A model generated the notes under the pieces. That model was not told where the DNA came from and ran no database searches. It was given only the letters and a program-made list of their open reading frames with translations. A stretch of 45,312 nucleotides of DNA, taken from NCBI GenBank assembly GCA_017552535.1, contig JAFZPV010000008.1:1-45312 (forward strand), written 5' to 3'. Below, piece after piece: positions 5,404 to 40,735 of this stretch (position 1 is the stretch's first letter; each line of letters starts with the position of its first letter). This stretch comes from Clostridia bacterium. Its GTDB lineage: Bacteria; Bacillota; Clostridia; Christensenellales; Aristaeellaceae. The translations under genes were made by a program, and so were the position numbers.

Positions 5404-5713
5404 CGCCGGAAATGAAACAAGATTTCATTTCCGGCGGTTTGGTTTTTGGCGCCGTTTGCCCATGAGTCTTCCAAAACGCCTGACCTGTGCCTGCTTTAGC
5501 CACAGGTCTCCGTTTTTTCTGAAATGCCTGCGGGCATTTCCAGGCGAAAAAACTGCATAGTAGCGATTCTTTGCTCTGGTCGTCTCCGCTTTGCTTCGCT
5601 CCCGGCGCAAAAATCGCTCCTCGGGCCGGCAAGGCTGGCCCTGCGGATTGAAATATGGAGGGGCGTCCCCCTCCAGACCACCCGGCTTATTCTCCTGTCT
5701 TTTGCAACAGCTC
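5404..5713 (-). repeat. Dispersed structured intergenic element, copy A
   Basis: One of three related copies (others at 16455-16766 and 40453-40735), here on the minus strand. In element order: a GGAGGGG / CCCCTCC hairpin, a GGGCC / GGCCC hairpin, a conserved core closed by AGCGATT / AATCGCT, a composite hairpin (outer arm GTTTTTTC / GAAAAAAC, inner arm GAAATGCC / GGCATTTC at 5521-5540), a variable stretch, and a perfect 14-bp terminal hairpin at 5404-5436. Read on the plus strand, that terminal hairpin is followed by a T-rich run (GGTTTGGTTTTTGG) and probably terminates argS. This fills the whole gap between argS and the convergent glycosidase gene. I see no coding sequence in it. Confidence 0.88.
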
Positions 5714-5721
5714 ATCTATAT

Positions 5722-5742
5722 GCCCAGATCATGAAATCGGGC
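5722..5742 (+). terminator. Short hairpin at the end of the GH36-like gene
   Basis: GCCC-A-GAT pairs with ATC-GGGC around CATGAA, followed on the plus strand by TTTTGTCTTT. It lies between repeat A and the stop of the leftward glycosidase gene and could act on transcripts from either side. Confidence 0.45.
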
Positions 5743-5750
5743 TTTTGTCT

Positions 5751-7334
5751 TTAGTTCTCCGTCCAGACGAACGTCTTTTCCGTTCCGTCCAGCAGCCATC
5801 TTTCGGGGCAGCAGTTTTCCATCCAGTCCAGGGGCACGGCGCTGTGATTTTGACTGGCGCCCCGGACGAGGCAGGCGGAGATATCCCTGAATTCCGCCGG
5901 CGACGGCACGTCCGGCTGGGTGGAAAAGAACAGGGGCGTGCCGCTGAAGGAAAGCAGCTCGGCCCAGCGGGAATTGAGCGTCCAGGGGATCCGGCCCGTG
6001 ATGCCCACGCAGTCGTGATCCGCTTTGTAGAACGCCCCGTCGTGCATGGCGTGGAAGGCCAGGGTATTCACGCCCATGCGGCGCGTGCGCGCCCACTCCC
6101 GTCCGCTGGTGTCGTCACCGACGCGGTTTATGTGGCACAGGCCCGCCGTGAGGAAGCCGGGCACGTTGCAGGCCAGGATCACCGTGCCCGGACAGGCGCT
6201 TTCGTATACCGCGCGGTAAAAGTCCGCCATGATCTCGGCGGAGGTGCGGCTCTGGTCAAAGAAGCGCCAGCCGCCGTCCGTAAGGGTCTCCGGGCGGCGG
6301 AAGCCCCAGTCGCCGAACACGTCGAAGCAGGAGAAATCGTGCTTGATGAGCCGGTAGCCCCACTCGGCGCTGAGCCGCTGCGTGACTTCGCGCACATATC
6401 GGAGCACCTCCGGATGCGAAGGATCGAGGTACTTCGGATTGCGTTTAAGCCGCCACGCAGGCGGCACGTCCTGCATCCTGCCTTCCTCGTCGCTCAGATA
6501 CCGCACCCAAATGCCGGGCACCGCGCCGGCGGACGCGATCTCCCCCGCCAGGGTGCCCATGTGGCCGTAATCGGGATTGCCCCTGTCCCAGGGACCCGCG
6601 CCGGGGCACTCGCTCCAGCCGGCGTCTATCACCATGTATGGCCTGGGCATAAGGCCTTCGCTCAGGCGGCTGATGAGCCGCGCGTCCCCGATGATGCGTG
6701 CGCGGCTGCTTTTCCCGTAGGCGTAATACCAGTTGTTGGAGCCGTACACCGGGAAGTCGGGCAGCAGGGGATCGTCGCACAGCGTGCGGTAAAAATTTTT
6801 CAGGGCGCTGAAGGCGCTTTGATCGGCATAGTCTTCCATGCGCACCCTGCAGGCCGCCAGCTCCCGCCCGGCCAGCACCACGCCCTCGCCGCCGCTGCGC
6901 ACGTCCAGGATCAGCGTGACGCGCCCGGGCTCGTACATCCACGCGGCGACGGCACCGGGACGCACCTTTACGCCGAAGCATTCCGTGAAGCGGCCCCGCA
7001 TGTCCGGCACGCTGTCCGTGCCGTTCGAAACGGCGAAGGCCCAGGGCATGCGCCTGTGGGGAATGACGCCGCTCCACTGCAGGTCTCCGTATCCCCGCTC
7101 CCAGCAGTCGGAAAAAACCTTCACGGGCTCAGAGCGCCTATCGTCCCCGCGCAGGCGCCACACGAGGGTGACCCATTCGACGGGCGTATCCTGCGCGCGC
7201 AGATACACGCCCAGCGCGCCATTCTCCATGCGGCAGAAGGCGCTCACGTCCCCCTTTTCGGCGCAGCTTCCGTCCGCAAAGACGTGCTCTTCCCGCGCGT
7301 CAAAGCCGATCATGTCCGGCAAGCGAAGCTTCAT
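5751..7334 (-). CDS. GH36-like glycoside hydrolase (alpha-galactosidase-type)
   Basis: 527 residues resembling clan GH-D/GH36 melibiases, which release alpha-linked galactose or related sugars with retention. An N-terminal beta-rich region (about 1-180) precedes the barrel, which opens at PVYGSNNWYYAYG. Later barrel strands read MVIDAGWSE, then RLIKHDFSCFD (position of the catalytic nucleophile Asp), and CHINRVGDDTSG (position of the acid/base Asp). It is shorter than classic GH36 enzymes (about 700) and has no signal peptide, so it probably acts on imported oligosaccharides. The ribosome binding site is AAAGGAG before ATG 7334. It is divergent from the Fic gene. With the GH38 gene nearby, it suggests use of plant or host glycans. 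Exact substrate is not readable. Confidence 0.8.
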   Translation of the reverse strand: MKLRLPDMIGFDAREEHVFADGSCAEKGDVSAFCRMENGALGVYLRAQDTPVEWVTLVWRLRGDDRRSEPVKVFSDCWERGYGDLQWSGVIPHRRMPWAFAVSNGTDSVPDMRGRFTECFGVKVRPGAVAAWMYEPGRVTLILDVRSGGEGVVLAGRELAACRVRMEDYADQSAFSALKNFYRTLCDDPLLPDFPVYGSNNWYYAYGKSSRARIIGDARLISRLSEGLMPRPYMVIDAGWSECPGAGPWDRGNPDYGHMGTLAGEIASAGAVPGIWVRYLSDEEGRMQDVPPAWRLKRNPKYLDPSHPEVLRYVREVTQRLSAEWGYRLIKHDFSCFDVFGDWGFRRPETLTDGGWRFFDQSRTSAEIMADFYRAVYESACPGTVILACNVPGFLTAGLCHINRVGDDTSGREWARTRRMGVNTLAFHAMHDGAFYKADHDCVGITGRIPWTLNSRWAELLSFSGTPLFFSTQPDVPSPAEFRDISACLVRGASQNHSAVPLDWMENCCPERWLLDGTEKTFVWTEN

Positions 7335-7446
7335 GGCAAAGTCTCCTTTCCTGTCAAAGCGGCATCTGACCTGTTCCCTGTCCTGCGCGTTTGTTTATCG
7401 AAGGCACGTTCCATACAGGAAACCAGACAAGATAACATACAAGTTC

Positions 7447-7475
7447 TTGATTATTCCGCGATCCGGGCATATAAT
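7447..7475 (+). promoter_or_regulatory. Promoter of the Fic gene, which decides its start codon
   Basis: -35 TTGATT (7447-7452), 17 bp, -10 TATAAT (7470-7475). The -10 overlaps the first possible ATG (7474), so that ATG would not be in the mRNA. The GTG at 7501, with GAGGTG six bases upstream, is the likely start. Confidence 0.7.
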
Positions 7476-7500
7476 GGCGGATGAAAGCGAGGTGCTGAAC

Positions 7501-8493
7501 GTGGAAAGCTATACGCCTCCGTTCTCTATCACCCATCAGATGCTGAACCTGTGTACGCAGATCGCAGAGAAGATCGGCATGGTCAGCAACTACCGCTGCT
7601 TTGAAACCAGACCGTACCTGCGCCGCAGCGGGCGCATCCGTTCCATCCACTCTTCCCTGGCCATCGAAGCCAACTCCCTGTCGCTGGATGAAGTCAGGAG
7701 CGTCATCGACGGCAAATCCGTCATCGGACCCCGCAAAGAGATCCAGGAGGTAAAAAACGCGTACCAGGCCTACGATATGCTGGGCCGGTTCGACCCGTAT
7801 TCACTGGAGAACCTGAAAAAGCTCCACGGCGTTGTGACCCGGCTGACGGTAGAGGAATCCGGCGTGTTCCGCAGCGGCAGCGAGGGCGTGTTCAGCGGAG
7901 GAAGATGCATTTTCATGGCGCCCCCGCCCCATCTGGTTTCGGAGCAGATGCGCCTGCTCTTTGACTGGATGGTCCGCGCGCGCAGAGAGGTCCATCCGCT
8001 GATACTGTCATCGGTGTTCCACTATGAGTTCGTCTTCATCCACCCGTTCGCCGACGGCAACGGGCGCATGGCGCGTCTGTGGCAGACCGCCTTGCTCTCC
8101 CAGTGGAATCCGATCTTTCAGTACCTTCCGCTCGAAAGCCGCATACACGAGTTTCAGGACGAATACTACCGGGCGATCGCCGCGTGCCACGCCGCCGGAA
8201 ATTCGGACGCTTTGATCCTGTTCATGCTGGACAAGATCGATATGACGCTGGACTGGGCGCTTGGGCAGGTCTCCGCGCCGGACGCGTACGTAAGCACGGA
8301 AGTGCGCAGGCTGCTGGATTTTATGGAATACGACGTACCGTATACGACAGCCCAGCTGATGGCCGGGCTGAAGCTGAAGTCCCGCGACAGTTTCAGAAAG
8401 ACGCACCTTCTTCCGGCGCTGCGTCACGGACTCATCGTTATGAGCGTCCCGGACAAGCCCACCAGCCGGAATCAGGCATACATCAAAAAATAA
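7501..8493 (+). CDS. Fic domain protein (probable AMP transferase, class II)
   Basis: Fic proteins transfer AMP or another nucleotide part to hydroxyl side chains of target proteins. The catalytic motif is intact: HPFADGNGRMAR at about residues 181-192. An inhibitory-helix-like segment SSLAIEAN (about 51-58) lies near the N-terminus, as in class II Fic proteins; it has E-A-N where E-G-N is usual, with the key Glu kept. The C-terminus (about 265-330) looks like a winged helix (TTAQLMAGLKLKSRDSFRKT). I prefer GTG 7501 (330 aa) because ATG 7474 lies inside the -10 box. No antitoxin-like neighbour is present, which fits a self-inhibited enzyme. Target unknown. Confidence 0.9.
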   Translation: MESYTPPFSITHQMLNLCTQIAEKIGMVSNYRCFETRPYLRRSGRIRSIHSSLAIEANSLSLDEVRSVIDGKSVIGPRKEIQEVKNAYQAYDMLGRFDPYSLENLKKLHGVVTRLTVEESGVFRSGSEGVFSGGRCIFMAPPPHLVSEQMRLLFDWMVRARREVHPLILSSVFHYEFVFIHPFADGNGRMARLWQTALLSQWNPIFQYLPLESRIHEFQDEYYRAIAACHAAGNSDALILFMLDKIDMTLDWALGQVSAPDAYVSTEVRRLLDFMEYDVPYTTAQLMAGLKLKSRDSFRKTHLLPALRHGLIVMSVPDKPTSRNQAYIKK

Positions 8494-8553
8494 TCACTGC
8501 TCCGCGCCTGCCTGATACCGCCGCCGTGCAGGCTGGAACCGTCTGCTTTCTTT

Positions 8554-9249
8554 TCAGCAGCAGAATATCCCGCAGCGGCCGCACAGGAGATTGGCAAACA
8601 GGCACATCAGCGCGCTGGACCATATGTTTCGCGGCATGCGGAAGCGGGTCGCATAGGACTGGCGCGCGCTGCCTGTGTAGCGCAGGCGCCGCACCAGGGA
8701 AGCGTATTCCATATTCATGGGCTCCATGGAGGCGGCCTTCTGGGCGTGGTCCAGGGCGTCCATATGCCGCCCCGTGCCTTCATTCGCCAGGGCGCTCAGG
8801 TAGTACCAGTAGGCGTCGCGCCGGGTGACGGTGGCCAGCAGGCTCAGCGCTTCGGCGTAGCGGCCCTGGTTGATCAGGTTCCTTGCGCTGCCCAGCGCAG
8901 AGTCCCCGCCGGAGGAATACGCGCCGAAATTCCCGAAGGGATTCGCGCCGCGGAAGAACTCGAATGGATCGGCGTAACTGCGCCCGTAGCCCTGCCCGTA
9001 ACCGTAGCCCTGGTTCTGGTAGCCGCCCGCGCCCTGATAGGAGGCGCCCTGCCGGGCATTGGGATCGTATTTGCCGTTCACGATAGTATCGTAGGCCTCG
9101 TTGATCTCCTTCATCTTCTGCTCGGCCTCTTTGGAGCCGGGGTTCAGATCGGGATGATACTTTTTGGCCAGCCTGCGGTACGCGGCCTTCACCTCGTCGG
9201 GGGCGGCGCCGGGGCTTAGGCCCAGCACGGTATATGGGTCCTGTGTCAT
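8554..9249 (-). CDS. J-domain protein with TPR-like region and Cys-rich tail
   Basis: 231 residues. An N-terminal J domain (about 4-65) has the HPD tripeptide in [11 protein letters not shown], which activates Hsp70 (DnaK) partners. A Gly/Tyr/Gln-rich linker (about 75-120) follows, then a TPR-like helical region ([17 protein letters not shown]... [16 protein letters not shown]), and a hydrophobic Cys-rich end ([11 protein letters not shown]). It lacks the zinc-finger and client domains of true DnaJ, so it is a specialised co-chaperone, perhaps membrane-associated through its tail. Its ATG overlaps the stop of the upstream DUF5685 gene (ATGA), showing translational coupling; the two products may work together. 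Confidence 0.85.
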
Positions 9250-10082
9250 GCGTTTTCCTCTCCGGCCGCGTCCCGGCGCTTGATGGAATACCGGGTCCAT
9301 ACCCCGGAATAGATGATGTTGCGAAGGATACCGATGTCCTGTACGATGGGCAGCGTCTCGAACGCCCCGGCGCACAGGGCCATCTGGGTCTGAAGCAGGT
9401 CGTACACCCGCTCTTCGTAATCCGGCAGGGCGCGCATGTCCTTAAGCGGATTGTAGCGCCCCTTCTTTTCGTCGCGCCTGGCGTCGTCCCAGGCGTCCAT
9501 AATGTAGATAAAGCGCCCCAGCGCGGCGCCCATGTTCTTAAGCGCTGGGGCCCACATGTCGTCCCGGTACGCGAACACCTCGCCCAGCATGCTGCCGAAG
9601 CAGTCCGCCGCGCCCAGTACGTCCCCGGACCTTTCGCGCTCGAATCTCCTCAGGCGCCCAAGCTGCTTTTCGATGGCAAAGGCCTGCCTCATGCGCCTTG
9701 CACGCGCGGACAGAAAGGCGTCCATCAGCTGTTTCGCGCCCAACTCCTTTAAGCGGTTTTTGTCGTCCGCCCAGTCGTCCAGGCAGTTGTAGAAAGCCAG
9801 CAGCAGGTCGATGTCCGCGGCGTAAGTGGTCATCTCACTGAAAACAAAGGCGTGCTTTTTCACCGGATGGGCGGCGCATACGCCGCGCCCGGCGGTCTCC
9901 TCCGGCTCGTACAGCGCACCCAGCACCGCGGCCAGAAACGCCGCGTCGTAGGACAGCGCCATGCGACCCTTCGGCCCCGCCGCGCTCCGCAGGCATTCGC
10001 ACACGCCGCAGTATATGCTGCGGAAGCGCGCCTTCTCCGCCTTGCCGAGCGTGCCGGGGTCGATCCTGACGTAGCCGAACAT
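9246..10082 (-). CDS. DUF5685-like helical protein
   Basis: 278 residues, all-helical by appearance, resembling the DUF5685 family of Bacillota. The start is [20 protein letters not shown], followed by YCGVCECL with a CxxC-type Cys pair. Two Asp-rich helices stand out: [18 protein letters not shown] and [21 protein letters not shown]. Such paired Asp-rich helices recall the metal-binding motifs of isoprenoid synthases, but the function of the family is not established, and this is only a resemblance. The gene starts one base after the zinc-ribbon gene's stop and overlaps the J-domain gene by ATGA, so the three are co-translated. Confidence 0.7.
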
Positions 10083-10083
10083 A

Positions 10084-10488
10084 TCAGGCCTTCTTGGTGA
10101 AGGTCGCCCCGCACTTGCCGCAGGTCACGGTCTTTTCGCCCACGTGGCGTGGAAGCTTGAGCCAGCTTTTGCACTTGGGGCAGCGGTAATACTTGTAGAC
10201 TTTTCGGTTTTTGAACCTTACCCAGGCCTGGGAAACGCGCCTTTTGAGCGGCTGGTATTTGGCCAGGAACCAGCGGTTCTCCTTTTCGCGCCGGACAAGA
10301 TTGCGGCTGAAGGCCCGGTATATCGCGTATATCCACATCGCCAACGACAGAAGGTTCAGAATGCCAAACCTTGTGAACAGGGCAAGGATATACAGCACGA
10401 GCCCCGTTACGTACAGGGCCATGCCGAACTGGTCCATGCCGCGCCGCCCCGCCATGAAGCGGTACAGCCACGCCTTGAATTTGCTCAT
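10084..10488 (-). CDS. Small membrane protein with C-terminal zinc ribbon
   Basis: 134 residues. A basic N-terminus is followed by one or two hydrophobic helices (about 20-60: FGMALYVTGLVLYILALFT and ILNLLSLAMWIYAIY). A basic segment leads to a zinc ribbon with two CxxC knuckles, YRCPKCKSWLKLP and VTCGKCGATFTKK, close to the end. The zinc ribbon is probably cytoplasmic. No specific function is recognised. Ribosome binding site AAAGGAG, seven bases before the ATG. It lies 30 bp after the alpha-mannosidase stop and 1 bp before DUF5685, so it probably belongs to the same leftward transcript. Confidence 0.75.
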   Translation of the reverse strand: MSKFKAWLYRFMAGRRGMDQFGMALYVTGLVLYILALFTRFGILNLLSLAMWIYAIYRAFSRNLVRREKENRWFLAKYQPLKRRVSQAWVRFKNRKVYKYYRCPKCKSWLKLPRHVGEKTVTCGKCGATFTKKA

Positions 10489-10518
10489 GATCCAGCTCCT
10501 TTCAGATAGTATCTCAGA

Positions 10519-13623: not shown

Positions 13624-13688
13624 GGTGACGTCCTCCCGTCGATCTTTGATGCTCCGCCCCAAAGGCGGATGTGTTTTGCGTTACGCCC

Positions 13689-13718
13689 ATTATACGGTCT
13701 TAAGCATCGCGTTGTCAA
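13689..13718 (-). promoter_or_regulatory. Strong promoter of the alpha-mannosidase operon
   Basis: On the minus strand: consensus -35 TTGACA (13713-13718), 18 bp spacer, consensus -10 TATAAT (13689-13694). It likely drives GH38, zinc ribbon, DUF5685 and the J-domain gene. Confidence 0.8.
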
Positions 13719-13747
13719 TGAAAGATGTTTGGGCAAAGCCCGCGCTT

Positions 13748-14581: not shown

Positions 14582-14601
14582 ATGCGTATTCCTCCAATGG
14601 T

Positions 14602-15282: not shown

Positions 15283-16433
15283 GCTGCATGAATGACGCGA
15301 AAAAAGGCTACCGTTCCTATCCCCTTTGCGACAGCCACGTGCACCTGGCCTTTCCCATGCACGTAAACGGCACCGCCCACATGCTGGAAAGCTTCATGGC
15401 CTATTTCGGGCTGGAAGGCCTGTGCCTGCTGGCGCTGCCCCATTCCAGCCGCGCCAAAGCCACCGATCCCGCCAACAACGTAAAGGCCCTGTACCTCAAG
15501 CACGTTTTAAGCGCCCGCCGGCCGGGCCGCCGCATATACGCCTTCGGGGGCCTGTACCATCACTTTGACGCCCGCGACACCGCGCAGGGGCTGCTTGCCC
15601 AGGTCAAGGCGCTCAAAAGCGCGGGCTTCGACGGCCTCAAGCTGCTGTATGGCAAACCCCCGCTGCGCCGCCGCCTGGGCGTGGGCCTGGACGACAGTTT
15701 GTTTGCGGAGGTCTGGCGCTTCTGCGAAAAAGAGCGCTTTCCCGTTACGCTGCACCCGGGCGACCCCGCCGAATTCTGGCGGGCCGGCGAAAACGGGGAG
15801 CCGCCCGTGTACGGTCCGGACGATACGCCCCTGGAAACGATACGCACCGAGATCAGAAATGTGCTCTCCGCCTGCCCGGAGCTGGATATCACCCTGTGCC
15901 ACTTCGCGTTTCTGGCGGACGACATAGGCCGCGCGGACCGGCTGCTTTCGTCTTATCCCGGCGTAAAGTTCGACCTGGCTCCCGGCAGCGAAATGTTTTA
16001 TCACTTCTCGCAGGACCCCTCTTCCTGGCGTGACTTCTTCATCCGCCACTCAAAGCGCATCCTCTTCGGCACCGACACCGACAACTGGGGCGACCCTGAC
16101 CAACTCGAGGGCTGCGAACACTGCTTCTCCTATCCCTTCAACCTGGTGCGCAGCGGGCTGGAGGGAAAAGCGCCTTTCCGCTTTGAGGACCGCGATTACG
16201 GCCTGCTGATGCCCCTCGGCTTGCCCGAAAGCGCGCTAAAGGACATCTACTTCCAAAATCTGATATCCCGGCTGGGCGAGCCGAAGAGCGTGGACGGAGA
16301 CGCCCTGCGTTCGGAGGCGGAAAGGCTGCGGGCGCTTTCGCACGCCGGTCTGCTTGGGGACAGCGACGCGGAAAGGCAGCGCCTGAACCGGGAGAGCCTC
16401 GAAACCATCTGCACACAGCTGCGCCCGCGGTAG
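15279..16433 (+). CDS. Amidohydrolase-superfamily metal-dependent hydrolase (TIM barrel)
   Basis: 384 residues. Metal-binding pattern of the amidohydrolase_2 type: HxH in LCDSHVHLAF (His20, His22), a His in PVTLHPGDP (about 159), a His in ITLCHFAFLADD (about 208) and an Asp in RILFGTDTDNW (about 266). Relatives are cytoplasmic hydrolases or decarboxylases of small molecules; the substrate is not known. The C-terminal 90 residues are helical. The gene is coupled to the preceding methyltransferase by a 4-bp overlap. Repeat element B begins about 20 bp after the stop. Confidence 0.78.
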   Translation: MSCMNDAKKGYRSYPLCDSHVHLAFPMHVNGTAHMLESFMAYFGLEGLCLLALPHSSRAKATDPANNVKALYLKHVLSARRPGRRIYAFGGLYHHFDARDTAQGLLAQVKALKSAGFDGLKLLYGKPPLRRRLGVGLDDSLFAEVWRFCEKERFPVTLHPGDPAEFWRAGENGEPPVYGPDDTPLETIRTEIRNVLSACPELDITLCHFAFLADDIGRADRLLSSYPGVKFDLAPGSEMFYHFSQDPSSWRDFFIRHSKRILFGTDTDNWGDPDQLEGCEHCFSYPFNLVRSGLEGKAPFRFEDRDYGLLMPLGLPESALKDIYFQNLISRLGEPKSVDGDALRSEAERLRALSHAGLLGDSDAERQRLNRESLETICTQLRPR

Positions 16434-16454: not shown

Positions 16455-16766
16455 GAGGCTGTTACAGAAGAAACGAGAAGAATCCGGGTGGTTTGGAGGG
16501 GTACGCCCCTCCAATCTTTGATCCGCAGGGCCAGCTTTGCCGGCCCGAGGAGCGATTTTTGCGCCGGGAGCGCAGCAAAGCGGAGACGACCAGAGCAAAG
16601 AATCGCTACCTTGCAGTTTTTTCGCCCGGAAATGCCCGGAGGCATTTCAGAAAAAACTGAGAACCAGTTGATGCAGCCAGATAGCATAAGACGTTTCAGA
16701 TATGCATCGGGCAGAAGGTTCCAAAAACCAAACCGCCGGGAATGAAATGAGATTTCATTCCCAGCG
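16455..16766 (+). repeat. Dispersed structured intergenic element, copy B
   Basis: Plus-strand copy, closest to copy A over its full length, including the 5' part (GTTACAGAAG... CCGGGTGG). Modules: GGAGGGG / CCCCTCC hairpin (16495-16513), GGGCC / GGCCC, AGCGATT / AATCGCT closing the conserved core, composite hairpin with outer arms CAGTTTTTTC (16614-16623) / GAAAAAACTG (16650-16659) and inner arms GAAATGCC / GGCATTTC (16629-16648), and a terminal hairpin (16734-16766; 14 bp with one C-A mismatch). It fills the gap between the amidohydrolase gene and the secDF terminator/promoter region. No gene is seen in it. Confidence 0.88.
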
Positions 16767-16767
16767 A

Positions 16768-16797
16768 GGGGCTGCTTGGCAGCCCCTTATTTCGTTT
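16768..16797 (+). terminator. Rho-independent terminator upstream of secDF
   Basis: GGGGCTGC, three-base loop TTG, GCAGCCCC, then TTATTTCGTTT. It separates the amidohydrolase transcript and repeat B from the secDF promoter 13 bp further on. Confidence 0.75.
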
Positions 16798-16838: not shown

Positions 16839-16882
16839 TTATGGATATTATTATGGGAAGGAATTTCGCGGTAGACGGAGAC

Positions 16883-28295: not shown

Positions 28296-31200
28296 TTACG
28301 GCTTGTTTTCAAGCTGCTCCATGATGTAGCGGTAGGTGCGCTCGTCGATGGGGTAGTAGTCTCCCGTGCCGTGATCGGCGCGGTAGAATCCGCCCTCGTC
28401 CCTGACGCTCGCCATGAGCGGATCGTTTGCGTACTGCTGTACCGCCCAGACCGCCGCGTAGGTCACATCTCCCAGGGAGCCGTATTCGCCCATGATCTCC
28501 AGCTCGCTTATATCGAGCCAGCCCCTCTCCGCCAGCCTGTCCTGGAAGGCCCTGATCTTCGCTTCGTCCTTTACCCAGTTTTCGTCATAGTCCGACGAAG
28601 CCGGCGTGGGCGTTGGCGTGGGTGTCGGGGTCGGAGTGGGCGTGGGTTCCGGCGTTGGTGTGGGCGTCGGCTCCGGTGTAGGAGTCGGCGTAGGTTCAGG
28701 TGTCGGAGTCGGCGTAGGTTCCGGCGTAGGTGTGGGTGTCGGTTCCGGTGTAGGCGTTGGCGTAGGTTCAGGTGTCGGAGTTGGCGTAGGTGTCGCCGTC
28801 GGTTCCGGCGTGGGTGTCGCCGTCACTGCCGGCGTAGGCGTCGGCGGAACGTTTTCGTAGATGTCGAAATCCACTTCAAGCGCGTAGGCGATCAGCCCGT
28901 TGGCGGGATTCTCGATGCGCAGCCATTCGCCGCCCGTGGCCAGCAGCCGGTAGCGCTCCGAAGCGTTGACCTTCGCCCAGGGGTCCGAAACGGAGGGCGT
29001 ATGGTATATGGCTGTGCCGTCGCGCCTGGCCATGACATATTTGTCGCCCGTGACGGGAATAAACGCGATCTCCTCCGGCGTGGCGGTCGGCGCCGGCGTG
29101 GGTGTGGGCGTCGGGGTTGGCGTCGGTGTTGCCGTGGGCGTCGGCGTGGGTGTCGGGGTGGGTGTGGGCGTCAGGGTAGGCACGGCGGTGGGGCCGGGCC
29201 GTTCGAACACGTCAAATTCATTGGCCAGCACGTAGCCGATATAGTTGTTGGAGCTGTTGCGGATGCGGTACCAGTATCCGCCCGTGGCCAGGAGCTCAAA
29301 TTCGCTGCTGGCGTTCACCACCGTCCACACGGCGGCGGGGTCCCCCAGCACAGGTACGCGGTACACCGTGGTGGCGTCCCGGCGGGCCCGCACGTATTTG
29401 TCGCCCGTCACCTCCACGAAGATCACGGGTGTCGCCGTGGGCGTGGGCGTGAGCGTGGGCCTGGGGGTGGGAGTAGGCGTGGGCGTTGGCGTCACGCTGG
29501 GCCTGGGCTCCAGCGCGCTGCGCCTGGCGTAGCCCTGCACGCCGCCGGCTGTGGTGACCTGCGCCCAGCTGGGACTCAATGCGCTCACCGTGAGGGTCTC
29601 GTTATAGTACGCGCGGCCCACGATGCGGGCAGACGCATACGGTTGGTCGTACAGGTCGGTATAGGTCACCTTGACCCGGTATGCCGCGGGCTCGAACAGG
29701 GGCGTAAAGCTCTCCGGCGTAGCCGTGGGCACAGGCGTGGACGCAGAGAAGCTGAGGTTCGCCTGCAGGGTGTATCCGGTGTACCCGGCGGCGTTCTGCA
29801 CCCGTGCCCAGGTCCCGTTGGCCGCCAGGAGCTTAAGGGCGCTGCCGCGGTTCACGTACCCCAGCGTGCGGGAAGTGGTGTCCGGGCTTTCGTAGATCGT
29901 GGCGTAGGTGGCACTCACCGTGACGTCGACGCCGCTGCCGTAATCCCAGAACGGTTCCATGGTGGGCGCCGCGGTGGGCGCGGGCGTGGCGTATACCGGG
30001 GCGGAAGAAGAATACAAAAGCGCCTGGGTAGCGGGGTCCGCAACGCCCGTCACAGTGAGCCCTGCCCGCGCCTGGAAGCTGCTCACGGCAGCGCGCGTGC
30101 GGGTCCCGTAGTTGCCGTCCGAGTTTCCGGGCTGGTATCCGAGACTCCTCAGCCGGTTCTGCAGCTGCCGGACGCGGTCGTTTTTGTCGCCGTAGGCAAG
30201 GTCCACGTAACCGTCGTTTTCGGGCGCCGTGGCGGAGAACAGCCGCGTTTGCAGGTATACGGACGCCTTGCCGCTCTGCCAGTAGCCGAGCCTGGCCTGG
30301 AAGTTTTTCACCGCTTCGGCCACCTGCTCGTCGTACCGGCTGCCCCTGGCGGAGGTGGGCAGATAATACAGTTCGATCAGCCTGTCAATAAGTTCGGCGA
30401 CGCGGTATCCGCTGTCGCCGTCCTTGAGTTCTATGTAACTTGTATTTCTTGGAGCGCCGTCCGCGTAGAGCGCTTTGAGCGTTTCCGCGTCCGCCGTGCC
30501 GGTCTGCGTCAGGCCTTTCTGCTTCTGGAACGCGAGCACCGCGTTGTAGGTGGCGGCGCCGTATTTGCCGTCCACAGCGCCCGCGAGGTACCCCAGCTCC
30601 TTGAGCCGGCTCTGCAGCGTGCTCACCCGGGTGCCGCTGTCGCCGCGCCTGAGCTCCTTGTAGGGATCGTAGGCGGGGATCTCGCCGTTCATCAGGCGCT
30701 GCATCAGGGCATTGTCCACCTTGCCGGTCACGGTCAGACCGAGATCCGCCTGCAGCTGCTCCACGGCGGTCTGGGTCTTGCCGCCGAACACGCCGTCCGC
30801 GGTGTCGGACAGGTAGCCCAGCTCGATCAGCTTATCCTGCAGAAGGCGCACACTGTCGCCGCGGCTGCCCCGCTGCATCGCGGGATACACCGTGGGCACG
30901 GGCGTGGGCGTGGGGGTGGGCAGGGGCGTGGGCGTCACTTCGGGAATGGTGGGATGCTCGGTCTCGCCCACGAACACCTTGTAGAAAAATTCCAGATCGT
31001 CTTTGTTGCCGCTCTTGGGCATATCGTACACCAGCAGCTCCTCGCCCGCTCCCAGCAGGCGGGGCTCCACGTCGTCAATGACGCCTTCGTAGTTGCCGGC
31101 GAGCTTCATGTACACGGCGTATTTGCCTGTGGAGGGGCTCACGCGGTACACCGTGTATTCCGTGTCGATGATAAAGATATATTCGCCCGCGCACACGAGC

Positions 31201-33410: not shown

Positions 33411-33678
33411 GGCGCTCCATGGCCGAGCGGAGCGCAGAAAGGATCTCTTCGGTGTCTTCCGCCAGTTCGCCCATATACCAACCGTCCAGCGCTTCGTCGT
33501 ATTCCAGGTAGGCGGCGGCCGCGAGCCTCGCCTCTTTTTCCGTAACGAACAGGTCCAGGGTGAGCGGCCTGGGAGCGTCGTACAGGTCGGCGATGAACTC
33601 CGTGTCGCTCAGGCGGCTGCAGTCCTCGTCCGATTCCAGAAACGCTGTCAGGCGCGTTACATCGATATCCAGAAGCAT
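33403..33678 (-). CDS. Small acidic protein of unknown function
   Basis: 91 residues, acidic, alpha/beta, rich in Leu and Glu (DEALDGWYMGELAEDTEEILSALRSAM). No signal peptide or known motif. The ATG at 33678 (MLLDIDVTRL) is chosen because GGAGG lies eight bases upstream; the earlier ATG at 33693 contains that site. First gene of a leftward operon (small protein, radC, zinc ribbon, possibly the large surface protein), overlapping radC by 8 bp. Has its own promoter. Confidence 0.7.
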   Translation of the reverse strand: MLLDIDVTRLTAFLESDEDCSRLSDTEFIADLYDAPRPLTLDLFVTEKEARLAAAAYLEYDEALDGWYMGELAEDTEEILSALRSAMERHG

Positions 33679-33701
33679 AGCCTGATCCTCCATTTCATTT
33701 T

Positions 33702-33730
33702 ATTGTACATCATTTTGAGGGCATATGCAA
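33702..33730 (-). promoter_or_regulatory. Promoter of the small acidic protein-radC operon
   Basis: Minus strand: -35 TTGCAT (33725-33730), 17 bp, -10 TACAAT (33702-33707). Confidence 0.65.
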
Positions 33731-33758
33731 GCGGATTCATGTATATTACGGATTTATT

Positions 33759-33792
33759 TCAATATATGAATTTTTCATTTCCGATATATTGA
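33759..33792. promoter_or_regulatory. AT-rich inverted repeat at the NodB-like gene promoter
   Basis: TCAATATAT (33759-33767) and ATATATTGA (33784-33792) form 9-bp arms; the right arm overlaps the -35 box (33789-33794). Candidate operator or DNA-bending site; no regulator is identified. Confidence 0.4.
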
Positions 33793-33817
33793 CTGTTATG
33801 CGCATATGGCGTATAAT
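33789..33817 (+). promoter_or_regulatory. Promoter of the Ig-like/NodB-like gene
   Basis: -35 TTGACT (33789-33794), 17 bp, -10 TATAAT (33812-33817). Confidence 0.75.
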
Positions 33818-33870
33818 TCTGATGTATGCGCGTTTATACGCGCCCGAAGAAACACGAAGGAGACGAACGG

Positions 33871-36030: not shown

Positions 36031-36485
36031 TCACGATCTACAAATCCCAGCGCATGCTCTTTGTGACCAAGGGCAAAAGAACCGTGTTCACCTGCCCCGT
36101 TCACCTGGGCTTCGCCCCGGACGGCCACAAGCAGGCCGAGGGCGACGGCAGAACGCCCGAGGGCAAGTACCGCATCTGCAGCGTGAACCCGGACAGCAAG
36201 TTCCACTTTGCCTTCGGCATCAGCTATCCCAATGCCCGGGACGCGCGCAGGGCCTGGCGGGAAAAACGCCTGAAGCCGGCGGACGCGCTTTTCGTCATCC
36301 TGGCTAACGCCCTGCTCCTTAAGCCCAAGTGGACTACGCCCCTGGGCGGCTGCATCATGCTGCACGGCGAAAGCCCTGAGAAGAAGAACGGCGACTGGAC
36401 GCAGGGCTGCGTCGCCGTGTCCGACCGGGACATGGACACCCTCGCCTCCCTGTGCAAACGCGGAGAAAAAATCATCATAAAATAG
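36027..36485 (+). CDS. L,D-transpeptidase-family (YkuD) protein without signal peptide
   Basis: 152 residues, almost entirely one YkuD domain. Catalytic motif: His in IMLHGES (His113) and Cys in DWTQGCVAVSD (Cys128); the G-C-(I/V)-A-(L/V) form with D-x-D-M-D after it is a common YkuD variant. Such enzymes make 3-3 peptidoglycan cross-links or attach proteins to the wall. Oddly, no signal peptide is present: the protein begins directly with the first strand. Its ATG overlaps the stop of the exported NodB-like gene, so the start is fixed. It may be exported by an unusual route, act inside, or be made as a frameshift fusion to the upstream protein. Confidence 0.85.
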   Translation: MITIYKSQRMLFVTKGKRTVFTCPVHLGFAPDGHKQAEGDGRTPEGKYRICSVNPDSKFHFAFGISYPNARDARRAWREKRLKPADALFVILANALLLKPKWTTPLGGCIMLHGESPEKKNGDWTQGCVAVSDRDMDTLASLCKRGEKIIIK

Positions 36486-36493
36486 GAAATAGG

Positions 36494-36557
36494 AAAGAGG
36501 AAAGAGGAAATGATATGGTTGGGAGCACCCGACAAACTCATTTCCTCTTTCCTCTTT
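36494..36557 (+). terminator. Purine/pyrimidine hairpin after the YkuD gene
   Basis: Twenty-bp perfect arms (36494-36513 and 36538-36557), purine on the left and pyrimidine on the right, with a 24-nt loop that can itself pair (GTTGGG / CCCGAC). A pyrimidine-rich tail follows. Likely transcription end for the NodB-YkuD pair. Confidence 0.6.
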
Positions 36558-36693
36558 TCTCTTTCCTCTTTCGCCCTTCCTCTTCAGCAAACCTGAAAGA
36601 AAGCTCTCCCCCGCGCCAACAAACTATCATCTCCTCCCTCCTCCCTCCACACTCGTCTAAATTTCCTCTTTCCTCTTTTCTCTTTCCTCTTTC
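36541..36693 (+). repeat. 32-bp pyrimidine direct repeats
   Basis: Identical 32-bp tracts at 36541-36572 and 36662-36693, built of TTTCCTC heptads, 121 bp apart. The purine arm at 36484-36510 is the same heptad inverted (AGGAAAG/T four times). The spacer (36573-36661) is C-rich and shows no gene. The second copy ends at the -35 of the SDR promoter. Confidence 0.8.
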
Positions 36694-36723
36694 TTGACAA
36701 ACTCCCTCCTCTTCCGCTACAAT
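36694..36723 (+). promoter_or_regulatory. Promoter of the SDR gene
   Basis: -35 TTGACA (36694-36699), 18 bp, -10 TACAAT (36718-36723). Immediately follows the second pyrimidine repeat. Confidence 0.75.
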
Positions 36724-36754
36724 ATCTCCATCCTAAGCGAGAAAGGTGACGGGC

Positions 36755-37552
36755 ATGCAGGACGAAAAGCTGATCGCCATCGTTACAGGCGCGGGCAGCG
36801 GCATCGGATACGAGACCGCCAAGCTCCTGTGCGAAAAAGGCTGGGAGGTATGGGATCTTTCGCGCCGGGACAGGGCGTATGAGGGCGTGAACCACATCTC
36901 CTGCGACATCGCAAACGAGGACCGCGTGCGCACGGCGGTGAACGTGATCGCCTCCCGCGCGGGCCATATCGACCTGGTGATCAACAACGCGGGCTTCGGC
37001 ATATCCGGAGCGGTGGAGTTCACCGCCCGGGAGGACGCCCTGCATCTTCTGGAGGTCAACCTGCTGGGCGCGGACAACGTGACCCGCGCCGTGCTGCCCC
37101 ACATGCGCAAAAACGGCTCCGGGCGGCTGATCTTCATCTCATCCGCCGCCGCCATCTTCCCCATCCCCTTCCAGGCCTGGTATTCCGCATCCAAAGCAGC
37201 CCTCAGCTCTTACGCGCTGGCCCTGCGGAACGAACTGAAGCCCTTCGGGATCGACGTGTGCGCGCTGATGCCCGGCGACATCAAAACCGGCTTTACCGCC
37301 ATGCGCGAAAAGCACCACGAGGGAGACGACCTCTACGGCGGACGTATCGAAAAGGCCGTGTCCGTGATGGAAAAGGACGAAACGAACGGCATGTCTGCCG
37401 CCTATGCCGCCCAGCAGGTGGTCAGGTGCGTATACGCCCGCAATCCCGCGCCGCTGAAGTGCATCGGCGCAAAATACCAGCTATTTGCCGTGCTGGACCG
37501 GCTTTTGCCCAAGAGATTTGTTAACTTTCTTATCGGCAAACTCTATTCCTGA
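36755..37552 (+). CDS. Short-chain dehydrogenase/reductase (SDR)
   Basis: 265 residues, a classical SDR using NAD(P). Cofactor loop TGAGSGIG (about 11-18), NNAG motif (LVINNAGFGI, about 75), catalytic Ser in LIFISSAAAI and the YSASK motif (Tyr near 142, Lys near 146). The C-terminus (RLLPKRFVNFLIGKLYS) resembles SDRs acting on lipids or alcohols, but no substrate can be named. ATG 36755 is chosen because AAGGTG lies six bases upstream; a GTG at 36746 lies inside that site. It stands alone with its own promoter. Confidence 0.9.
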   Translation: MQDEKLIAIVTGAGSGIGYETAKLLCEKGWEVWDLSRRDRAYEGVNHISCDIANEDRVRTAVNVIASRAGHIDLVINNAGFGISGAVEFTAREDALHLLEVNLLGADNVTRAVLPHMRKNGSGRLIFISSAAAIFPIPFQAWYSASKAALSSYALALRNELKPFGIDVCALMPGDIKTGFTAMREKHHEGDDLYGGRIEKAVSVMEKDETNGMSAAYAAQQVVRCVYARNPAPLKCIGAKYQLFAVLDRLLPKRFVNFLIGKLYS

Positions 37553-37560
37553 TTCCGCTA

Positions 37561-37589
37561 TGGACTTTACGCCGGTTTTGTGATATAGT
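37561..37589 (+). promoter_or_regulatory. Possible promoter of ireB
   Basis: -35 TGGACT (37561-37566, 4 of 6), 17 bp, -10 TATAGT (37584-37589). Followed by GGGGAGGG before ATG 37622. Confidence 0.5.
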
Positions 37590-37621
37590 AGTAAGGTAAA
37601 TAATTGGGGAGGGTGCGTGCC

Positions 37622-37858
37622 ATGCTTCCGTACGACGAGTCCATGAGCGCTGAAGACGTCATCAAATACGTGTATGCCGCGCTCAAAGCCAAGGGACACG
37701 ATCCCATCATGCAGATCGTGGGCTACCTCATTTCGGGCGATCCCACCTATATCACCAGCTACAACAACGCCCGCTCCCTGGTAAGCCGTGTGGAAAGGGA
37801 CGAGCTTTTGGAGGAATTCGTGCGCTTCTATGTGGCCAAAAACCACCTGGAAGACTGA
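37622..37858 (+). CDS. ireB: IreB-family regulatory protein
   Basis: 78 residues, matching the IreB/YrzL family (former DUF965): VIKYVYAALKAKGHDPIMQ, then IVGYLISGDPTYITSYNNAR and ERDELLEEFVRFYV. In Enterococcus faecalis IreB is phosphorylated on N-terminal threonines by the wall-sensing kinase IreK and affects cephalosporin tolerance. Here the N-terminus (MLPYDESMSAED) has no threonine, so that regulation may be lost or use Ser. GGAGGG lies eight bases before ATG 37622. The order ireB, ruvX, DUF1292 is the standard Bacillota one. Confidence 0.93.
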   Translation: MLPYDESMSAEDVIKYVYAALKAKGHDPIMQIVGYLISGDPTYITSYNNARSLVSRVERDELLEEFVRFYVAKNHLED

Positions 37859-37872
37859 ATCATGCAAAAGGA

Positions 37873-37898
37873 AAGCCCGGCACACGCTGCCGGGTTTT
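37873..37898 (+). terminator. Attenuator-like terminator between ireB and ruvX
   Basis: GCCCGGCA, CACGC loop, TGCCGGGT, then TTTTG. A good Rho-independent terminator just after ireB; ruvX translation starts 18 bases beyond, so read-through or a separate promoter is needed for ruvX. Confidence 0.75.
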
Positions 37899-37915
37899 TG
37901 CATATGGAGGCAAAC

Positions 37916-38677
37916 GTGCGGCGCATACTGGGACTGGATATCGGCGACAAACGCATCGGCGTGGCGGTGAGCGACCTGCTGGGGCTTACGGCCCAGGGCG
38001 TGGAGACCATATTTACCAAAGGTATGGACAGCGACGTAAGGCGCGTATGCGAGCTGGCGCGTCTGTACGATACCGACCGCGTGGCCGCCGGCCTGCCCCG
38101 GCGCCTGAGCGGAGAGGAAGGCCTGCAGGCCGGAAAGGTGCGCGCTTTCGCGGAAAAGCTTGAAGAAAACGGCCTGAGCGTGCGCTTTGTGGACGAGCGG
38201 CTCACGTCCGTGAGCGCCGAGCGCCTTCTGATCGACGCGGGCATACGCAGGGACAAGCGCAAACAAGTGATCGACAAGCTGGCCGCCACCTATATCCTGC
38301 AGGCGTTTCTGGACATGGGCGGCTGGCAGGAAAGCGCGCCTCAGGCAAACGACGACACAAACGAAACGGAGGTTTTCAGACTTATGGAAGGCTACAGCAT
38401 GGAACAGGACGACATCGTAACGCTGCTGGACGAAGACGGCAAGGAGTGCCGCTTTCAGCACCTGATGACGCTGGAGTTCGAGCAGAAGAACTACGTGATC
38501 CTCGCCCCCGCCGAGGAAATGGAAGACATCGCGCCGGACGAGGCCGTGGTGCTGCGCATCGATACAGACAAGGACGGCAACGACGTGTACACCTCCCTGA
38601 CCGACGAAGACGAGATGGAGCGCGTGTTCGAGCGCTATCTCGAGATCGCGGGCGAGGACGAAGAAGAGGAAGAGTGA
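37916..38677 (+). CDS. ruvX: RuvX (YqgF) nuclease-like protein fused to a DUF1292 domain
   Basis: 253 residues in one frame. Residues 1 to about 140 are RuvX/YqgF: ILGLDIGDKRIGVAVSD (first acidic residue), AAGLPRRLSGEEG, VRFVDERLTSVSAE and DKLAATYILQAFL. This RNase H-fold protein is linked to 16S rRNA 5'-end maturation and once was proposed as a Holliday junction resolvase. After a linker (about 145-165), residues 166-250 are DUF1292/YrzB (IVTLLDEDGKECRFQHLMTLE, YVILAP), normally a separate small gene. A GGAGG and ATG (38384) remain at the join, so separate translation of DUF1292 is possible. GTG 37916 is preferred as the start (GGAGG five bases before); upstream ATGs lie in the terminator. 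Confidence 0.87.
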   Translation: MRRILGLDIGDKRIGVAVSDLLGLTAQGVETIFTKGMDSDVRRVCELARLYDTDRVAAGLPRRLSGEEGLQAGKVRAFAEKLEENGLSVRFVDERLTSVSAERLLIDAGIRRDKRKQVIDKLAATYILQAFLDMGGWQESAPQANDDTNETEVFRLMEGYSMEQDDIVTLLDEDGKECRFQHLMTLEFEQKNYVILAPAEEMEDIAPDEAVVLRIDTDKDGNDVYTSLTDEDEMERVFERYLEIAGEDEEEEE

Positions 38678-38700
38678 TCTGTTCATCAGACAGCGTCAGG

Positions 38701-38737
38701 GCCCCCGGAGCGCAAACCGCTCCGGGGGCCCTGTCGC
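38701..38737. terminator. Very GC-rich hairpin after the ruvX fusion
   Basis: CAGGGCCCCCGGAGCG and CGCTCCGGGGGCCCTG flank CAAAC: a 16-bp perfect stem between the convergent ruvX and nrdG genes. It lacks a T-run but should fold very stably from either strand. Confidence 0.7.
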
Positions 38738-38782
38738 ATGATCGTTTTCGCAAGCGACCATGCCAGCCTCTTCATAAAAGCT

Positions 38783-39283
38783 TCACGCCTTTTCCACCGC
38801 ATTCCCCGTTTTGAGGGATGCCTGCACGTCGATCAGGCGCTGGTTTCTGCTGCCCCGAAACCGCAATTCCAGCGTGCGCTGGGCCAGGATGAAGGGCCCG
38901 TCCACCAGCACGTCGGTAAGGGACAGAAGTTCCTTTACGTCCGGCTCCGTCTCAGCCTTGTGCAAAAGCTGCTCGTAGGTCCAGCCGCTGTAAGCCCATA
39001 CGTTGAGTCCCGCCTCACGCGCTGCCCTGGCCAGCTCGGCGCAGGCCGCGGCCTGGCAGAAGGGATCGCCGCCGGTCAGGGTGATGCCGTCCAGAAGCGG
39101 GTTGTCTTTCATCATCCGTACGATGCGCTCGGTGGTGTCGGTTTTGCCGCCCTGAAAATCGTGGGTGTCCGGGTTGTGGCAGCCCGGGCAATGGTGGGGG
39201 CAGCCCTGGGTGAACACCGCCAGGCGGAAGCCGGGGCCGTCCACGATGGAATCGTTCACCACGCCGGCAATGCGTATATCCAT
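38783..39283 (-). CDS. nrdG: Anaerobic ribonucleotide reductase activating protein
   Basis: Radical SAM enzyme that puts the glycyl radical on NrdD, enabling deoxynucleotide synthesis without oxygen. 166 residues, normal length. The cluster motif is FTQGCPHHCPGCHNP (Cys28, 32, 35), followed by GITLTGGDPFCQ, the GGxP-type SAM-binding region. The partner nrdD is not in the window. Ribosome binding site GGAGG is seven bases before the ATG. It lies 45 bp after ruvC on the same strand and may share its transcript. Confidence 0.93.
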   Translation of the reverse strand: MDIRIAGVVNDSIVDGPGFRLAVFTQGCPHHCPGCHNPDTHDFQGGKTDTTERIVRMMKDNPLLDGITLTGGDPFCQAAACAELARAAREAGLNVWAYSGWTYEQLLHKAETEPDVKELLSLTDVLVDGPFILAQRTLELRFRGSRNQRLIDVQASLKTGNAVEKA

Positions 39284-39328
39284 ATGCTTTCCTCCGATGA
39301 TCCAGGCTTTGTTCCGGCGCGCGCCGGT

Positions 39329-39823
39329 CTATTTGATCCTGTATAATTCCTTGGCGTGCAGGCAGTTGGCGTGGGTGATGGCCACAGCCAGCGCGTCCGC
39401 CGCGTCGTCCGGCTTTGCGGGCTCGTCCATCTTTAAAAGCAGCTTCACCATGTTCTGCATCTGCTGCTTTTCCGCTTTGCCGTAACCTGTGATGGCCTGC
39501 TTGATCTGCATAGGCGTGTACTCATACAGATTTTCGGTGCGCTCCGCGGCCGCCGCCAGCGCCGCACCGCGGGCCTGCGCCACCGCGATGCCCGTGGTGA
39601 CATTGTGGCCGAAAAACAGCTCCTCAAAGGCGATGTCTTCCGGCTGAAAGGTGTCGATCAGCTGGCCCAGCGCCGTGTGGATAGTGCGCAGCCTTTGGGG
39701 CATGGGCGAGCGCGCCGCGGTGGAGATCACGCCGTAGGTGAGCATTTTGTGCCTGCCGCCGGAATAATCGATCACGCCGTAGCCCATGAGCGCGAGGCCG
39801 GGATCGATGCCCAGGATGATCAT
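39329..39823 (-). CDS. ruvC: Holliday junction resolvase RuvC
   Basis: Cuts Holliday junctions together with RuvAB. 164 residues, standard length. Acidic catalytic residues: Asp in MIILGIDPGLALMGYG (residue 7), Glu in IAFEELFFGHN (about 67), and the pair in KPDDAADALAVAITH near the end. ATG 39823 has GGAGG six bases upstream and overlaps the NUDIX stop (ATGA). ruvA and ruvB are not in the window. Confidence 0.96.
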   Translation of the reverse strand: MIILGIDPGLALMGYGVIDYSGGRHKMLTYGVISTAARSPMPQRLRTIHTALGQLIDTFQPEDIAFEELFFGHNVTTGIAVAQARGAALAAAAERTENLYEYTPMQIKQAITGYGKAEKQQMQNMVKLLLKMDEPAKPDDAADALAVAITHANCLHAKELYRIK

Positions 39824-40281
39824 CTGTCGCCTCCGCGCCTTTCGCTGCCCAGGTATATGGTTTCGCCGTAATCCAGCAGGGCGGGCAGATTGTCCCTCAC
39901 CACCCTGGGAAACAGGCTGGCCGCACAGGCCTCGTCCACCGTGAGCCACTCCATGCCCACCTGGTACGCGTCCCGCTCCACGGGCTCGCGGGCCGGCACC
40001 TCGGGCAGATAGCGGCACAGGAACACGAAGTACATCTTGTGCGCCTTCACGCTGCCTTCATGGCCACTGACGCGCTCGAAGACGGCGCTTAAGCGCATGG
40101 GTTCCACGGTCAGTCCCGTTTCTTCCATGACCTCGCGCTTTACCGCCTCGGTGAGCAGTTCTCCTTCATGCTGACCGCCGCCCGGCAGCGCGTAATACAC
40201 GCCCAGCCGTGACACACACTTGTTGAACAGCAGTCTGCCTTCATGCAAAATCAGCGCTTTCGCCGAATTGCGAATCGCCAA
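39820..40281 (-). CDS. NUDIX hydrolase, probable TTG start
   Basis: 153 residues with a complete Nudix box in LPGGGQHEGELLTEAVKREV followed by MEETGL (about 34-58). Family substrates vary; nothing here fixes one. The only start in frame before the conserved part is TTG 40281 (an in-frame stop lies three codons upstream), with weak purine-rich sites before it. A 24-codon open frame begins at ATG 40315, close to the predicted transcription start, and overlaps the NUDIX start in another frame (see findings). First gene of the NUDIX-ruvC-nrdG run. Confidence 0.82.
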   Translation of the reverse strand: MAIRNSAKALILHEGRLLFNKCVSRLGVYYALPGGGQHEGELLTEAVKREVMEETGLTVEPMRLSAVFERVSGHEGSVKAHKMYFVFLCRYLPEVPAREPVERDAYQVGMEWLTVDEACAASLFPRVVRDNLPALLDYGETIYLGSERRGGDR

Positions 40282-40323
40282 ACTCCATCATCTCTTCCGG
40301 GTTATCCCATTTCATAATGTGTA

Positions 40324-40352
40324 ATTATACCCCAAGAAAGCCGATTTGGCAA
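40324..40352 (-). promoter_or_regulatory. Promoter of the NUDIX-ruvC operon
   Basis: Minus strand: -35 TTGCCA (40347-40352), 17 bp, -10 TATAAT (40324-40329). Predicted transcription start near 40317. Confidence 0.75.
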
Positions 40353-40452
40353 TAGCGCAAGCCATGAAAAAACACCGGTGCGCTCCTTCCGATGGCGCGA
40401 GCGAAGCGCACGCGCCACACCGATCCCACAGAGAGGAGATCTCGTCGCCCCT

Positions 40453-40735
40453 CCCGGGGTGGCCAGGAGGGGCCGCGCCCCTCCAAATTCAATCCGCAGG
40501 GCCAGCTTTGCCGGCCCGAGGAGCGATTTTTGCGTCGGGAGCGCAGCAAAGCGGAGACGACCAGAGCAAAGAATCGCTTCTTTGCAGTTTTTGCGCCCGA
40601 AAACTCCGCAGAGTTTTAGCAAAAACTGAAAACCTGTTACTGGAGCCGGAAAAAGCCTTACGTTTCGGAAAACCAATGATCAAAAGCACCCCAAAACCAA
40701 ACCGACGGAAATGAAACAAAGTTTCATTTCCGTCG
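40453..40735 (+). repeat. Dispersed structured intergenic element, copy C
   Basis: Plus-strand copy, the most diverged in its 5' part and stems but with a nearly identical core (about 40490-40580). Composite hairpin: outer arms CAGTTTTTGC (40585-40594) / GCAAAAACTG (40619-40628), inner arms AAAACTC / GAGTTTT (40600-40617). Terminal hairpin 40703-40735, 14 bp perfect (CGACGGAAATGAAA / TTTCATTTCCGTCG). Read on the minus strand, the terminal hairpin follows the L,D-transpeptidase stop and is trailed by GGTTTGGTTTTGG, so it probably terminates that gene. The 100 bp before the element (40353-40452) hold no gene; they are GC-rich with small inverted repeats. Confidence 0.87.

Follow-up and report, generated by a model that had tools for sequence, protein, structure and literature searches.

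The window analysed here, the whole stretch of 45,312 nucleotides of contig JAFZPV010000008.1 from a Clostridia bacterium, contains three related structured elements: copy A (5404-5713, minus strand), copy B (16455-16790, plus strand) and copy C (40453-40735, plus strand). We consider it likely that these are copies of a BOX-like family of non-autonomous DNA transposons (miniature inverted-repeat transposable elements, MITEs) which carry a core with a conserved fold. The elements are short, occur dispersed in many copies, lack a transposase gene and possess terminal inverted repeats. A MITE or REP-like element was among the ideas put forward in an earlier reading of the letters alone (below, the original prediction), and its MITE part is strongly supported by the copy number, the inverted-repeat ends, the existence of filled and empty sites in related species, the duplicated target sites of relatives and an insertion sequence that inserts in the same manner.

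Copies, distribution and anatomy of the element

A BLAST search with copy B as the query (own span 16455-16766) recovered copy A at 5404-5711 (E 7.2e-85) and copy C at 40457-40731 (E 5.4e-62). The same 33-nt end hairpin is found in all three, at 5404-5436, 16734-16766 and 40703-40735, and the structured core covers 5510-5679 in copy A and 40461-40628 in copy C. In this way, the three related copies of the original prediction were recovered, together with the common module order, the nearly identical block and the terminal hairpin that it had ascribed to them. The pattern AGGAGCGATTTTTGCG matches exactly at all three copies; when up to three mismatches were allowed, five matches were obtained in the window, a number that was reached in none of 100 shuffles. 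The element extends past the limits that were drawn initially, on one side by a terminator-like hairpin beyond the end hairpin (in copy B at 16768-16786 and followed by T's, to about 16790), and on the other by a left end, GGGGCTGTTGCA, that is present in other copies.

Within the genome of the window (G000; 2.39 Mb in 62 contigs, 76.7% complete) 50 BLAST matches with copy B were obtained, which became 52 distinct places after merging with the finds made with the end sequences. Given that at least 15 of these 52 places stop within 60 bp of a contig end, the true copy number is uncertain; many of the breaks in this draft assembly fit the repeats. BLAST recovered the element in 14 of 60 genomes, G000 included. 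With a covariance model, 74 of the 120 genomes searched in the window's family proved to carry it (G000 included), representing 35 of 50 genera, with at least 24 matches in the top genomes. In an order-wide draw 18 of 248 genomes gave a match, nine of which belong to the window's family (again with G000) and nine to four other families (f10, f22, f23 and f33), four of the latter nine with a single weak match.

The comparison with Rfam yielded no match above the curated thresholds in the whole window; when copy B was compared together with six related loci, all matches stayed far below the threshold. As Rfam gave no such match and further copies proved abundant in the genome and in relatives, neither of the two outcomes that had been named as speaking against the original prediction (a match to a known family, or a lack of further copies) came about. 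Similar DNA was not found in phage and plasmid records, and searches of the open-licence papers in PubMed Central brought up no account of the repeat. A pattern scan of viral contigs gave seven matches, at the level of the pattern only. The eight matches in a scan of named genomes fell in Streptomyces and other unrelated groups and were judged, from the hosts alone, to be due to chance.

An oriented alignment of 27 copies revealed a fixed order of parts, which comprises the left end GGGGCTGTTGCA, four hairpins (H1 to H4), a linker and the 33-nt end hairpin. On the plus strand of copy B, H1 (TTGGAGGGG..CCCCTCCAA) is located at 16493-16514, H2 at 16528-16546, H3, which has a variable top, at 16551-16607, and H4, with a conserved asymmetric loop CGCCCG/A, at 16614-16659; the end hairpin H6 at 16734-16766 has the general form CGNNNNAAATGAA..TTCATTTNNNNCG. 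The linker between H4 and the end hairpin is less structured and contains a conserved CGTTT, H3 occurs in more than one version, and a terminator-like hairpin often follows 3' of the end hairpin. Within the end hairpin 19 arm combinations were seen, 16 of which are fully complementary. Full copies measure about 300-400 bp in G000 and about 220 bp in a related genome, G090. A long form with extra hairpins inside the 5' arm of H4 is represented by eight copies in G000 and one in G002, and shortened forms include two copies that consist of the right part only and one with little beyond the ends.

Many copies in the window's genus have the inverted-repeat ends GGGGCTGTTGCA/TGCAACAGCCCC; the right end is missing in copies A and B, and both are missing in copy C. 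The notion that the two ends form the closing helix of one RNA was dropped, as by our own reading they show no visible co-variation between copies. A possible likeness of this end to those of the IS6 family was likewise considered and set aside.

Two separate observations concern particular copies. A version of H2 close to GGCGGCATGTACGCCGC recurs in G006, G002, G007, G012, G090 and G284, with loop letters that are nearly constant across genera despite differing surroundings. At L066:1073-1890 (G000, contig C6) a copy lacks its 3' part and an IS200-type element comes next, which gives the impression that IS200 had inserted into the copy.

Conservation of the fold

The predicted RNA fold of copy B has a z-score of -5.8 and that of a relative in G006 one of -6.5. 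RNAalifold, applied to 46 genus-level copies, proposed 62 pairs, 33 of which showed two-sided compensated changes. The covariance model was built from 16 sequences of two genera; L001, L002 and L011 were left out of the underlying alignment, as their first hairpin was seen shifted by one base. All 67 loci supplied to the model matched it, although many of them had been fetched by the same model, so that their presence is not independent, whereas the letters in their stems are.

The resulting family alignment contained 71 distinct core rows, among them nine weak antisense matches, and being fitted to the model it leans towards that model. Two-sided changes with pairing kept were observed at 44 of the 46 pairs: at all nine pairs of helix 1 (H1), five of the seven of helix 2 (H2, where the inner two are weak), all 12 of helix 3 (H3) and all 18 of helices 4 and 5 (H4). 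Pairing was found in 92.8% of the cells, compared with 41-51% when the partners were slid. The covariation score amounted to 0.611, versus 0.170 in shuffles (none of 500 was as high) and at most 0.121 with slid partners, and a genus-level MAFFT alignment agrees with the model-fitted one. From genus to genus the stems vary strongly in sequence, yet the modules keep their order. The chain of hairpins is real, as its pairing is maintained across the bacterial family while the letters change.

The pairs that deviate from Watson-Crick pairing carry information on the strand. After removal of the nine weak antisense rows and of four rows that were identical, 35 G-U against 11 A-C pair types were counted in the family alignment (p 0.0005; 87 against 13 cells), and in the genus alignment 25 against 12 (p 0.047). 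Such an excess of G-U over A-C, seen on the plus strand, speaks for selection that acts on an RNA or single strand of this polarity. In addition, unpaired bases are conserved on either side of H2, between H3 and H4 and in the loop of H4. The suggestion of a small RNA in the original prediction is upheld as far as it concerns a conserved fold that is biased towards the plus strand, while a transcript and its function are predictions only.

A rather unlikely alternative, although the strongest of those considered, is that the elements are purely selfish MITEs without any selected RNA, in which the stems co-change through palindrome repair by template switching and through the spread of founder copies within lineages. 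Palindromes are prone to template-switching repair, and the lineage-specific stem sequences are what the expansion of founder copies predicts. The excess of G-U over A-C on one strand would be left unexplained, though strand-biased mutation could contribute to it and account for part, as would the conserved unpaired motifs between the stems and the occurrence of the core with different transposon ends.

Insertion sites and candidate transposases

Evidence for movement as a unit comes from the flanks. In G090 the copies are near-identical and have the ends GTTACTRTTC/GAACAGTAAC. For this genome 16 loci were supplied, 13 of which had both ends, and these 13 showed seven perfect 8-bp target duplications, a perfect one of 9 bp, one of 7/8 and two of 6/8, with none at the remaining two; the 8-bp duplications are too short to contain whole hairpins. 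In a second set, 49 of 55 loci were used (six had too little flank), most of them from other genera and a small number from G090 or the genus of the window. Here flanking direct repeats of 15-35 bp were found at nine of the 49 loci, while shuffled pairings gave repeats of at least 14 bp in 0.05% of cases. Target duplications were accordingly observed in G090 and at these nine loci, and not as a group in the window's genus.

All but one of the nine long direct repeats correspond to whole or near-whole palindromes, each of them different, which indicates insertion at hairpins without sequence preference; this holds outside the window's genus, G090 aside. The repeats lie flush with the ends of the element or within a few bases of them, and in some cases T's follow. 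Judged by their sequence, the duplicated palindromes look like intrinsic terminators.

Comparison of sites between genomes adds to this. The site L004 of G000 is empty and its counterpart L107 of G006 is filled. Behind argS the element is present in G000 and G003, a remnant is left in G001 and the site is empty in G002; in G004, G005 and G006 no recognisable element was seen in the argS regions that were fetched. In G006, none of 20 copies was recognised as sharing both gene and orientation with a copy of G000; a few adjoin a shared gene at a different site or in the opposite orientation.

The gene context was determined with a home-made gene caller for 93 copies of at least 120 bp, a few loci of which overlap, and both neighbours were called for 60. 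Of these, 31 were located between convergent genes, two between divergent ones, and 27 between co-directional genes (15 in one orientation and 12 in the other). Many copies are found a short distance after a stop codon, which agrees with the part of the original prediction that concerned the 3' untranslated region; an effect on that region is plausible and unproven. The copies would settle at such positions because insertions elsewhere are harmful.

As to the enzyme, a DDE transposase made elsewhere would act on the ends of the element. Transposases of the IS1182 family were identified in G123 (L239:640-2320; 438.6 bits) and G081 (L244:346-1893; 442.4 bits, with a cut-off of 270), in both cases encoded by a gene without internal stops beside a terminator-like hairpin. 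The insertion sequence of G123 is flanked on both sides by a perfect 31-bp hairpin repeat, the first copy of which begins some 20 bp past a stop codon. In G081, too, the IS1182 gene adjoins a hairpin that follows a stop codon, but no duplication was seen there. The left ends of both start with CAGAC like the MITEs of the same genomes and have a short TGNC-AAA block in common with them, without being identical. The statement in the original prediction that there is no transposase or target duplication consequently applies to copies A, B and C, and not to the relatives, where 8-bp and hairpin duplications and an IS1182 element were found. DUF772, a domain of IS1182 transposases, was present in five of seven genomes with hairpin duplications versus none of seven in which no duplications were seen (Fisher p 0.021), in a comparison of hand-chosen genomes in which three of the five matches were short, weak or interrupted.

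The IS1182-family elements IS1272 and TnSha1 are described in the cited sections of PMC5678879 and PMC4923244 as inserting at hairpins without sequence preference, with five of seven TnSha1 targets reported as terminators on the basis of RNA-seq. The present elements resemble them in the targeting of hairpins and in the presence of IS1182 transposases in G123 and G081. They differ in that the hairpin is duplicated, both at the present elements and at the G123 insertion sequence, whereas the same sections report that IS1272 and TnSha1 delete the hairpin wholly or partly and leave no duplication (PMC4923244, PMC5678879); moreover, the present elements contain no transposase gene. Duplication of the whole hairpin is drawn in PMC5678879 as a possible alternative (Fig 13, pathway b), and the whole-hairpin repeats seen here are what this pathway would leave. 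The duplications around the passenger elements and around one IS1182 element would then be natural examples of a route that, in the part of PMC5678879 cited, is only sketched.

In several genera, then, the elements were probably moved by an IS1182-type enzyme that recognises terminator-like hairpins, inserts beside them and duplicates the hairpin. As a duplicated palindrome constitutes an inverted repeat, insertions of this kind could surround the core with new ends. This would account for ends that vary between lineages around a core that does not. G023 and G090, which belong to the same genus, have different ends around related cores, and such renewal may be the reason for the difference. 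Hairpin duplication would offer a mobile element a simple route to new ends.

A number of findings weigh against the assignment to a mobile family driven in this manner. In the window's genus no target duplications were detectable at the level of the group, neither as an enrichment among 18 two-ended copies nor in a test of 59 copies from which those without a recognised first or end hairpin were left out; only L076 (TTTACAC, 7 bp, flush) and L016 (6/8) look duplication-like. Four of 16 fetched copies of G002 follow the same gene as a copy of G000 does and share its orientation (judged from one flank each), an excess by our own rough estimate, and these common sites suggest long persistence over recent movement. 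Copies between co-directional genes show no preferred orientation (12 versus 15), so that transcription running on from one neighbour cannot apply generally. With respect to the enzyme, two of the seven genomes with hairpin duplications yielded no DUF772 gene, apart from the short, weak or interrupted nature of three of the five matches. A search with PF13751 found no IS1182 gene in G000, G001, G002, G005 and G006, and PF05598 gave no match in G000, G002 and G006. The ends in the window's genus (GGGGCTGTTGCA) are unlike IS1182-like ends, no autonomous element with matching ends was found for this genus, and among the roughly 100 positions listed no two G090-type ends were spaced as in an insertion sequence.

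The shared sites also bear on an explanation that we regard as improbable, namely that the copies form a family of genes for small or regulatory RNAs, each functional and with its own terminator, that has grown by duplication and gene conversion without transposition of its own. The strong conservation of pairing, the bias towards the plus strand, the terminator-like hairpin that closes many copies on their 3' side and the four sites common to G002 and G000 in the same orientation all fit such a family. The 8-bp duplications of G090 and the hairpin duplications elsewhere show, however, that the element was inserted as a unit, which largely refutes this explanation for the movement in relatives, and the lack of a preferred orientation between co-directional genes argues against it as well.

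Mobilisation by a single-strand transposase (HUH/Y1, REP-like) or by reverse transcription, with the fold needed on the moving strand, was considered and dropped as very improbable: the hairpins at both ends, the strand-biased fold, the sites beside terminator-like hairpins (group IIC introns favour terminators) and the one IS200 transposase of G000 would suit it, but among 12 element-rich draft genomes, each with at least 12 covariance-model matches and possibly missing genes as drafts, Y1 was not found in seven and reverse transcriptase (RVT_1) not in eight, G000 among the latter, and a DDE enzyme accounts better for target duplications combined with inverted-repeat ends. The single Y1 transposase of G000 scores 154.8 bits as IS200 and 33 as REP-associated, below the cut-off of 80. 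Intergenic repeats of the REP and ERIC type are dispersed palindromes behind stop codons, and REP depends on Y1 transposases. The present family is alike in the dispersed palindromes behind stop codons and unlike in that Y1 was not found in those seven genomes.

Relation to known repeats, possible role of the core and local context

The nearest described element is BOX of Streptococcus pneumoniae. As presented in the cited part of PMC3049150, BOX elements are modular short repeats with inverted-repeat ends, target duplications and predicted RNA stem-loops, which are expressed in several cases and over-represented between convergent genes. The MITE family described here has the modularity, the structure, the inverted-repeat ends, the target duplications and the bias towards convergent genes in common with them. 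It differs in host group and modules, in that co-changing pairs throughout a bacterial family demonstrate its fold, and in its occurrence with different transposon ends. The family is set beside BOX, which in streptococci is built from boxA-boxB-boxC sequence modules, by description and not by sequence; by analogy it would work like BOX, without any relatedness being implied. The pneumococcal SPRITE and RUP repeats are likewise small and enriched between convergent genes, SPRITE being terminator-like and near genes, whereas their ends are different and a multi-hairpin core is not among the features given for them in the same part of PMC3049150.

Short mobile repeats are commonly dismissed as junk in which hairpins arise incidentally. 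Considering that transposon ends of at least three kinds were found around the core, it probably has a value of its own as a plus-strand RNA, as far as can be told from sequence comparison. The fold may have been kept because plus-strand transcripts carry the core, and the likeliest benefit, which is the weakest step of the explanation, would be a harmless or stabilising 3' end of the mRNA. Taking this further, we tentatively raise the possibility that the core represents a new class of structured RNA that rides on at least three kinds of transposon ends, which are renewed at terminator hairpins, and that has an RNA task, for instance the protection or insulation of mRNA 3' ends, by which the copies remain tolerated. 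As the fold is conserved across the family while stems, ends and many sites change, selection on a passenger transcript is directly testable.

With regard to the local context, all three copies in the window are strictly intergenic, as had been predicted and as follows from the positions of the flanking genes and stop codons. Copy A is situated between the argS stop at 5399 and a minus-strand stop at 5751, behind argS and antisense to it. Copy B lies between a gene that ends at 16433 and secDF, encoding SecDF, at 16841. Copy C is flanked at 40281 and 40753 by two minus-strand genes. Directly 3' of copy C, the sequence reads as a terminator-like hairpin (AAAAGC..GCTTTTTT; 40736-40753, plus strand) that continues up to the stop codon of the minus-strand gene.

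The window contains some other repeats. Two direct repeats of 61 nt (42470-42530 and 42709-42769), with starts 239 bp apart, are 93% alike and each include a GC-rich hairpin. Between two genes, at 36475-36697, purine/pyrimidine-rich direct and inverted repeats are found (ATTTCCTCTTTCC...). Finally, repeats with a period of 12 bp are present within or near reading frames at 28594-29193, 41375-41482 and 1894-2013; judging from the DNA letters, they likely encode linkers rich in threonine, proline and glutamate on the minus strand.

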